Assembly: GCF_002835465.1 (NCBI RefSeq)
Contig: NZ_PIZM01000001.1
Coordinates: forward strand, 434,001 to 498,000
Direction of reading: 5' to 3'
Source: Psychromonas sp. psych-6C06
GTDB lineage: Bacteria > Pseudomonadota > Gammaproteobacteria > Enterobacterales > Psychromonadaceae
DNA length: 64,000 nucleotides
The position numbers and the translations under genes are program-made. Below are positions 47,623 to 49,183 of the stretch, in pieces; the stretch's first letter is position 1, and each line of letters starts with the position of its first letter. The notes under the pieces were generated by a model. That model was not told the origin of the DNA. It worked only from the letters and a program-made list of their open reading frames with translations, and searched no databases.

Positions 47623-48522
47623 TTATGACTCTGATTGCTCAAACTGGGCAATGATTGCGCGCATTAGTTTTGTTCTGTCATGACGCCAGTCTCTATTTAC
47701 GGAGGCGAGGTCTGCTTGAAAGAAATGCCATTGATCTTCGATAATTGCATGTGGCGTTTCGCCAATCAATACATCGATTTTACGACCTTGACAGGCGCGC
47801 TCACACCATTCCAGTTTTTGCTTTATATCCATTCTTCCTGCTGGCCCATATTCAGGCGAGAGGTTTTCAATAAAAAGTAGCTTAGCTTTTTTATTATTAA
47901 AGATAGCTTTACCCACTTCAGGTAATAATAGAGGGGGCATAATGCTAGTTAGGAAGCTACCTGGGCCAAGAATAATGGCATCCGCTTCTTCAATGGCAAC
48001 TATTGCTTCGTGCGTTGCGGGTACTTGAGGCTCTAAGTCTAAGCGTTGAAGGTCTTCTTCCATCTCATCTACGCTGGTTTCACCATGTACCCATTTACCA
48101 TTATTGGCTAACGCCTTAAGGTCAGAAGGGTGCTCAGACATTGGCACAATATTCACTTCTACTTTTAGCATATTGCGTATTAATTGAATTGCTTCCATCG
48201 GTCGTACTGAGAGATTATCGAGCGCGGTAAGCATTAAATTCCCCAAGTTGTGGCCATCAAGCTCACCGGTCCCTTTAAAACGGTACTCAAACATAATTGA
48301 CTCTATCGATGGTGTGGTGATCAACTGGTTGATACAATTACGTGTATCTCCCCATGCAATCCCTCCCTGACAATTTCGAATACGCCCAGTAGAGCCACCA
48401 TCATCGGTGGTTGTCACGATACCTGTGGCATTATTACCAAAACCTTTTAAAGCAGCTAACATCCGCCCTAAACCGTGACCACCGCCAATTGCGACAATTT
48501 TTTTGTGTTTGTATTTATTCAT
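47623..48522 (-). CDS. ybhK: YvcK/YbhK family protein (CofD-like fold)
   Basis: The 299-residue protein is of the YvcK (gluconeogenesis factor, UDP-sugar-binding) family with a CofD-like fold. Typical motifs are AIGGGHGLGRMLAALKGF, TTTDDGGSTGRIR, GDTRNCI, GHNLGNLMLTAL and AIILGPGSFLTSI. In Bacillus YvcK controls carbon flow and cell shape; in proteobacteria the role is not settled. The neighbour upstream (22-base gap) is the degenerate AAA+ gene, and both appear co-transcribed. Length agrees with E. coli YbhK (302). Confidence 0.92.
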   Translation of the reverse strand: MNKYKHKKIVAIGGGHGLGRMLAALKGFGNNATGIVTTTDDGGSTGRIRNCQGGIAWGDTRNCINQLITTPSIESIMFEYRFKGTGELDGHNLGNLMLTALDNLSVRPMEAIQLIRNMLKVEVNIVPMSEHPSDLKALANNGKWVHGETSVDEMEEDLQRLDLEPQVPATHEAIVAIEEADAIILGPGSFLTSIMPPLLLPEVGKAIFNNKKAKLLFIENLSPEYGPAGRMDIKQKLEWCERACQGRKIDVLIGETPHAIIEDQWHFFQADLASVNRDWRHDRTKLMRAIIAQFEQSES

Positions 48523-48544: not shown

Positions 48545-49003
48545 TTAGGCTTTTGGAAAACGAATTAATAGATCTACTTTAGTAGATAAAGAAGCACTGA
48601 GCGTTTGCTTCTCTTCGGTTACTAGCATCACGATACCGTTATGCTTAGCAATATTTTTAAATAGATTATTTATATTAAAACCATTATCACGCTCATGTGC
48701 ATTTTTGACGGCAGTTTTTTTATCAAACAATAGGTCTGCCTTGGATAATAATAGAATATTACGCTCTGTGCGTGCTGTGATAAATAGACTATCAACGCCT
48801 TCATCGGGCGCTTTTGCAGAAATAGCATCAGAGTGTTGAATTTTATGCTGGGTAAGTTGCTTAAAGGTTGAACTAATCGTTTCAACATCTTGCTCACTAC
48901 CACCATTCAAAGTGACGAGAAAACGAGATTTATGCGCACTAATTTGGACTAAATCGTTTAAAAAACGTTGATAACTTTTACTTTGGTAATCTACGATGAG
49001 CAT
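48545..49003 (-). CDS. Degenerate AAA+-like protein (pseudo-ATPase)
   Basis: This 152-residue protein has no assigned family that I recall, but its second half follows the AAA+ core. ILLLSKADLLF (83-93) occupies the place of the Walker B ILFFDEADALF. KKTAVKNAHERDNGFNIN and NLFKNIAKHNGIVMLVTE match the AAA+ region up to sensor 1, and the end VDLLIRFP matches the last core strand. The P-loop position (about 32-42) reads LNGGSEQDVET, with no GxxGxGKT, and the Walker B DE is SK. ATP hydrolysis is therefore not expected. It is located 22 bases upstream of ybhK. Family comparison is from memory. Confidence 0.65.
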   Translation of the reverse strand: MLIVDYQSKSYQRFLNDLVQISAHKSRFLVTLNGGSEQDVETISSTFKQLTQHKIQHSDAISAKAPDEGVDSLFITARTERNILLLSKADLLFDKKTAVKNAHERDNGFNINNLFKNIAKHNGIVMLVTEEKQTLSASLSTKVDLLIRFPKA

Positions 49004-49183
49004 GGATGTTCCTATGAAGGGGGTTATTAATAATATGTTATTAGTTTAACAGTATTTTTAAGAAAAAATTCTGCTATTGCACGTTTGAGGCATGAACAAT
49101 ACTTTTTGTCACAATTTGATTTACAATGCACACTTCGATTGTGCCACTCAACGTTTTACGCCATTGGGTCATATAGGAGGTTT

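Follow-up and report, generated by a model that had tools for sequence, protein, structure and literature searches.

A gene for a 152-amino-acid protein, located in the window (the whole stretch of 64,000 nucleotides of Psychromonas DNA analysed here), encodes what is, by its predicted fold and by descent as judged from sequence comparison, an AAA+ protein. The combination of AAA+ descent with loss of the residues characteristic of ATPases is, in our judgement, very probably correct. Orthologues are present in 21 of the 24 genomes of Psychromonas. Most work on AAA+ domains concerns ring motors driven by ATP; a naked AAA+ core that is kept under selection in 21 of the 24 genomes of a genus would offer a compact test of the fold without ATP. 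To judge from family databases and from the titles and abstracts of the open-licence literature, where no such family was described, a small AAA+ core family devoid of the ATPase residues is apparently new. The ORF is intact and stands alone, as originally predicted from the letters of the window, starting with ATG and specifying 152 amino acids on the minus strand. The features discussed below are the following (positions in the window).

47623..48522, minus strand: ybhK/YvcK-type gene, 22 nt downstream of the pseudo-AAA gene; adjacent in the window genome only
48545..49003, minus strand: pseudo-AAA gene, 152 aa (ATG 49001-49003, TAA 48545-48547); orthologues in Psychromonas
48557..48574, minus strand: final core strand b5, residues 144-149, with 3 more residues before the protein ends
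48578..48586, minus strand: arginine-finger equivalents, residues 140-142; S-[TS]-K in 21/21 orthologues, R-R in intact relatives
48641..48721, minus strand: stretch following Walker B plus helix a3, residues 95-121; His103 invariant
48734..48757, minus strand: Walker B strand equivalent, residues 83-90; S-K as the acidic pair, D-E in 0/21
48881..48907, minus strand: P-loop equivalent, residues 33-41; N-G invariant, the rest variable, GxxxxGK[ST] in 0/21
48935..49003, minus strand: N-terminal strand and helix a0, residues 1-23, with the SKSYxRFL motif; conserved in Psychromonas
49010..49013, minus strand: AGGA, likely ribosome-binding site
49043..49052, minus strand: conserved upstream element CTGTTAAACT; promoter-like, possibly an extended -10 or an operator

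Predicted AAA+ fold and loss of the nucleotide-site residues

An AlphaFold2 model built from a 21-row alignment reached a pLDDT of 86.0 and a pTM of 0.82, the sole segment of at least three residues below pLDDT 50 being residues 97-106. When this predicted model was compared with the PDB by Foldseek, 81 matches were obtained at E <= 0.001 (best 1.6e-5), and the 50 listed among them are AAA+ proteins or complexes. Sequence profiles lead to the same family. The Pfam AAA profile (PF00004) scores 14.1 bits (E 0.067) on the window copy, against a curated cut-off of 21.2, and matches 11 of the 21 orthologues at E <= 0.001 (best 9.3e-8) and 13 at E <= 1; AAA is the only Pfam family found at E <= 0.001 among the 21. 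The alignment with intact AAA domains spans the whole core, from b1, the place of the P-loop, a1, b2, a2 and the Walker B strand through the post-Walker B stretch, a3 and the sensor-1 strand to the place of the arginine fingers and b5. Predicted fold, Pfam matches among orthologues and motif losses together bear out the original prediction of a degenerate AAA+ core; the fold search proposed with it returned AAA+ core matches to a protein whose P-loop is absent.

Other searches added less. PHROGs family phrog_10401 ("ATPase") was matched at E <= 1 by 16 of the 21 orthologues (best 1.2e-5), a result consistent with AAA that adds no further information, and the matches in NCBIfam were weak and scattered over nine families (best E 0.008). 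Predicted viral structures yielded 30 matches at E <= 0.001, the named ones being mostly AAA ATPases of large viruses; these matches are support for the fold only. A phage origin was rejected, as there was no match in phage records and no relative was confirmed in viral contigs. Plasmid records matching one orthologue at E <= 0.01 number 104, all under 60% identity, and the best annotated of them are ATP-binding or AAA proteins. Membership in a defence system was likewise discarded, PADLOC reporting two single-member weak matches. Searched by sequence, the PDB gave two weak matches, one of which is an FtsHi subunit (E 0.67). The likeness to FtsHi, a component of chloroplast motor complexes, lies in AAA cores of the FtsH/Cdc48 type, one of them named "probable inactive". 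FtsHi subunits sit inside hetero-complexes and, to judge from chain lengths, are large, unlike the stand-alone proteins of about 150 amino acids described here.

The elements that AAA+ ATPases use to handle ATP are altered throughout the family. The window copy has N-G-G-S-E-Q-D-V in place of the P-loop and S-K in place of the Walker B acids; neither the Walker A signature nor the D-E pair occurs in any of the 21 orthologues, so that the loss of both motifs, originally noticed in one sequence, holds for the entire set. The sensor-1 Asn is replaced by E, D, Q or S in 21/21, and the arginine-finger positions hold [TS]-K in 21/21. The residues invariant across all 21 orthologues are N33, G34, H103, S140 and K142. 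Every protein ends no more than five residues past strand b5 and thus lacks a C-terminal lid domain. The pore-loop-1 motif of intact relatives, KYIGE, is also missing from the Psychromonas set; the stretch following Walker B, which together with helix a3 makes up residues 95-121, we take from its position to be the pore-loop-2 region. In light of the lost residues the protein is probably non-hydrolysing, as had been proposed, and nucleotide binding would appear to be absent as well. Since the known parts for ATP use are gone, the protein probably works by binding a partner protein rather than by motor action.

Conservation and upstream element in Psychromonas

The 21 carriers, counting the window's own genome, have orthologues 45-64% identical to the window copy, and each yields a single match at E <= 0.001; second matches at E 0.1-0.5 in four genomes were taken as noise. 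The three genomes devoid of the gene are 79%, 51% and 93% complete, the two incomplete ones (79% and 51%) being counted as misses. Orthologues measure 149-154 amino acids and none of the 21 has an internal stop. Of the 210 pairs, 7 show a dS under 1; in these, which are not independent of one another, the dN/dS ratio ranges from 0.04 to 0.21. These figures dispose of the possibility, raised at the outset, that the ORF is present in this genome only and evolves under relaxed selection, and they uphold the view that it is not a pseudogene: the frame is open in all 21 copies, and purifying selection is seen in the pairs that can be measured.

Conservation is unevenly distributed along the protein. 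Helix a3 is the best conserved element, with a mean top-residue share of 0.91, followed by b5 (0.85) and b1 (0.84); the value for the whole protein is 0.73, and the least conserved elements are a1, b2 and a2 (0.52-0.58). The gene's surroundings differ between Psychromonas subclades. Other than the gene itself, no gene cluster is present in more than 9 of the 21 neighbourhoods, and the attempt to read a function from the neighbours in Psychromonas was abandoned.

A short sequence upstream of the gene is more constant. The motif CTGNTANNNT precedes the start codon by 46 to 81 nt in 16 of the 21 orthologues and is absent from the upstream regions of the other five; in 200 shuffles it occurred on average 0.98 times and at most 3 times, versus the 16 observed. 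A longer, 16-nt form, AADAARCTGTTAAACT, occurs 10 times in the 24 genomes, and by coordinates nine of these occurrences lie just upstream of the pseudo-AAA gene. The 16-nt form has 0 matches in the window's own genome, where the element differs from it. The idea of a regulon defined by this element was rejected, given that just one of the 10 occurrences is elsewhere. The element is promoter-like in sequence and may serve as an operator or as a promoter, of either the extended -10 or the ECF type.

Intact and small relatives in other families

Beyond the gene's own family, searches with the Psychromonas profile detected AAA ATPases with E values down to 1.3e-14; the best matches measure 459-493 and 659-705 amino acids. 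On sequence grounds, the closest intact relatives are the AAA ATPases of extracellular contractile injection systems (eCIS; Pvc15/Afp15 type), whose matches overall fall into sizes of about 455-493 and about 660-740 amino acids. One intact relative (L023) adjoins an eCIS_core gene (PF13699), another, on a Nostoc plasmid, lies near DUF4157, and a third, on an Enterobacter plasmid, has an annotated contractile-injection tape-measure protein on one side and DUF4255 on the other. eCIS-type genes thus flank these three examined ATPases; they do not flank the Psychromonas gene. The label "Pvc15/Afp15 type" was chosen because of gene context and of what PMC11495950 describes. The Psychromonas protein resembles the eCIS-type ATPases in the order of its core and in the surroundings of its motifs (for example, GKRTxVxDAHDRYAN beside DKKTAVKNSHERD), whereas it lacks their N-terminal part, intact P-loop, DEAD Walker B, sensor-1 Asn, R-R fingers and C-terminal part. 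Two other loci drew attention in the course of these searches. At locus L170 (G006:C1:1556500-1560500), a Cdc48/VAT-like protein of 738 amino acids contains two intact AAA domains, and its gene is flanked by two ORFs that, by eye, resemble the gas-vesicle proteins GvpL/F. Locus L168 (G013:C112:57000-59800) holds pieces of an AAA gene in different frames and is apparently broken.

Psychromonas itself seems mostly devoid of eCIS. A match to eCIS_core was found in one of the 24 genomes, covering 38 of 79 positions and scoring 23.7 bits against a curated cut-off of 22, and Pvc16_N was found in none of the 24, in a search whose positive control was likewise without a match. Any ancestral role in handling cargo must consequently have changed. 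Of two comparison genomes included in the same eCIS_core search, G036 gave a match and G042, which holds a well-matching 484-aa AAA relative, gave none; hence not every intact relative is a proven eCIS protein. According to PMC11495950, which cites earlier work on this point, the unfolding of signal-peptide cargo by Pvc15 is reportedly not abolished by mutations in Walker A and B. The same paper concludes that ATPase activity mediates payload loading, and Pvc15 therefore sets a partial precedent for a function without ATP.

A second set of stand-alone proteins was found in another family of the same order (f7, presumably Alteromonadaceae). In this family, 16 of 246 genomes carry a protein of 165-192 amino acids with a related core, and there is one further stand-alone protein, L171. 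The P-loop is missing from 15 of the 16, and 10 of the 16 keep a DEAD Walker B; a single member, L159, keeps both. The model of one member (L150) reached a pLDDT of 86.1, gave AAA+ fold matches and has an N-terminal hairpin. The Psychromonas protein is like this set in being a single lidless core encoded by a stand-alone gene; it differs from it with respect to the DEAD box of the ten, the P-loop of L159 and the hairpin modelled in L150. A profile made from the 16 f7 proteins, with no Psychromonas sequence, retrieved the pseudo-AAA gene from 21 of the 24 Psychromonas genomes at E values from 3e-8 to 2e-16, and hhalign related the Psychromonas and f7 profiles with 98% probability. The f7 profile also picked up a frame of 224 amino acids in G176. 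Within a sample of the class, 69 of 369 genomes were matched at E <= 1e-5, mostly by frames of at least 285 amino acids; shorter frames were those of G673 (202 aa), G838 (217 aa) and G809 (74 aa).

A phylogenetic tree placed the 21 Psychromonas proteins together with 16 small proteins of f7, on a branch that separates them from 16 eCIS-type and 4 outgroup domains with support of 100/99. The same branch was recovered at 96/99 after removing the columns of the P-loop, Walker B, sensor-1 and the fingers. The f7 proteins entered these trees from residue 39 onwards, with L171 as a fragment; L163 was dropped as a duplicate of L164, and merging reduced the intact eCIS-type domains from 18 to 16. The rows are short, several f7 branches are long and the order within the small-protein group is without resolution; long-branch attraction could help unite the two sets. 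One f7 member keeps the P-loop, ten keep DEAD and the Psychromonas proteins keep neither, a gradation that would fit a stepwise loss. It seems conceivable that all these proteins form one lidless pseudo-ATPase family with a single origin from, or beside, the contractile-injection unfoldases, in which ATP use was lost by steps, leading in Psychromonas to an ATP-independent chaperone or adaptor that belongs nearly to the core gene set of the genus, provided with a dedicated control element and detached from any injection machine. Taken as a whole, this history strikes us as possible and rather doubtful. The f7 proteins would then be candidate intermediates, with P-loop or DEAD still present, and the order of the losses is open to study.

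Possible function and its alternatives

The explanation we favour is that the protein is an ATP-independent binding module for other proteins, acting as an adaptor or holdase and related by descent to the eCIS unfoldases. In this view it consists of a single predicted AAA+ alpha/beta core domain, with neither lid nor N-domain and stripped of the arginine fingers and the residues of the nucleotide site, and shares its ancestry with the AAA+ unfoldases of contractile injection systems of the Pvc15/Afp15 type. Binding of a partner protein would proceed without ATP through the conserved helix a0, helix a3 and the a4-b5 segment, a face suggested by the strong conservation of a3 next to the variable a1, b2 and a2. 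Conservation in core strands and helices may instead reflect folding rather than a binding face. The gene has its own conserved promoter-like element and is independent of ybhK. The reading as a whole is advanced tentatively, as a serious possibility that falls somewhat short of probable.

A protein of this kind might also act on AAA+ rings themselves: as a poison or capping subunit, it would dock on a true AAA+ protomer and block or tune ring assembly, and in the same vein the original prediction had suggested as an alternative that it may be a regulatory subunit for a true AAA+ partner encoded elsewhere. The retained AAA+ core fold would suit such a role, as would the well conserved a3-to-a4 segment, which by position we take to be the second region of homology. 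Potential targets abound, with 51 Pfam AAA matches (E <= 0.1) in the genome, and members named inactive are known in AAA complexes, the FtsHi motor complexes being among our matches. AAA rings use the lid domain for assembly, however, and the Psychromonas protein has none. Moreover, at E <= 0.001 the family profile found in the gene's own genome only the gene itself (in a search that scored 9 of 17 first-look candidates). The f7 genomes can be read either way: nine of the 16 with the small protein also hold a longer AAA match in the same search, whereas seven lack one at E <= 1e-4. On balance we regard a capping role as unlikely. Still less can be said for the idea of a functionless remnant in decay. 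The loss of every catalytic motif and a neighbourhood that varies between subclades speak for it, but one intact copy of nearly constant length per carrier genome and the purifying selection documented above refute this explanation, to which we attach almost no credence.

The location of the gene had originally pointed to a different partner. The pseudo-AAA gene lies 22 nt upstream of ORF 47623-48522, a CofD-family member (PF01933, E 2.6e-80), on the same strand, so that the two may be co-transcribed in the window genome, and the main suggestion at first was that the protein may be a regulatory subunit of YbhK. The arrangement is not shared. In tblastn searches with YbhK, the neighbour was found at one of 21 short loci, the window's own, and at none of the 20 neighbourhoods (up to 17 kb) of the other Psychromonas copies nor at any of the 16 f7 loci; in addition, 16 of the 21 pseudo-AAA genes are preceded by an element of their own. 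Thus, of the expectation that the gene would be conserved beside ybhK under purifying selection, the selection was found and the conserved adjacency was not. The adjacency is accidental and the gene is independent of ybhK; with synteny lacking, a YbhK subunit is refuted as the general function and has become very improbable. The upstream element raises another alternative, namely that the protein is a nucleic-acid-binding or transcriptional regulator acting on its own gene through that element. Nine of 10 occurrences of the 16-nt form at the pseudo-AAA gene fit a gene-specific operator, and in f7 a gene for a regulator is a frequent neighbour: a WYL-domain protein (PF13280, tested on the L150 copy) is encoded in 11 of 16 loci, and in 10 of them its gene directly follows the small AAA gene in convergent orientation, with an overlap of 4-9 nt in six. 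Yet the element can also be read as an extended -10 promoter (CTGTTAAACT, CTGTTAGAAT, CTGCTACACT), and no DNA-binding family was recognised in the Pfam, NCBIfam and PHROGs searches. The WYL protein was also rejected as a universal partner: its relatives occur in 6 of the 24 Psychromonas genomes and, by coordinates, none lies within 50 kb of the pseudo-AAA gene. We consider the regulator quite improbable, and the adaptor or holdase described above remains our preferred reading.

The WYL neighbour of the f7 genes is treated as a lead, not as a partner. The convergent arrangement is found at L150, L152, L153, L157, L159, L160, L161, L163, L164 and L165, which represent three genera and have partly different flanks. 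Finally, in genus g98 of f7 (L150, L151 and L152) a RES-domain gene (PF08808, tested on the L151 copy) lies downstream of the small AAA gene, adjoining it or near it. This gene is accompanied by a small partner gene, recognised by eye, as in RES-Xre toxin-antitoxin pairs.
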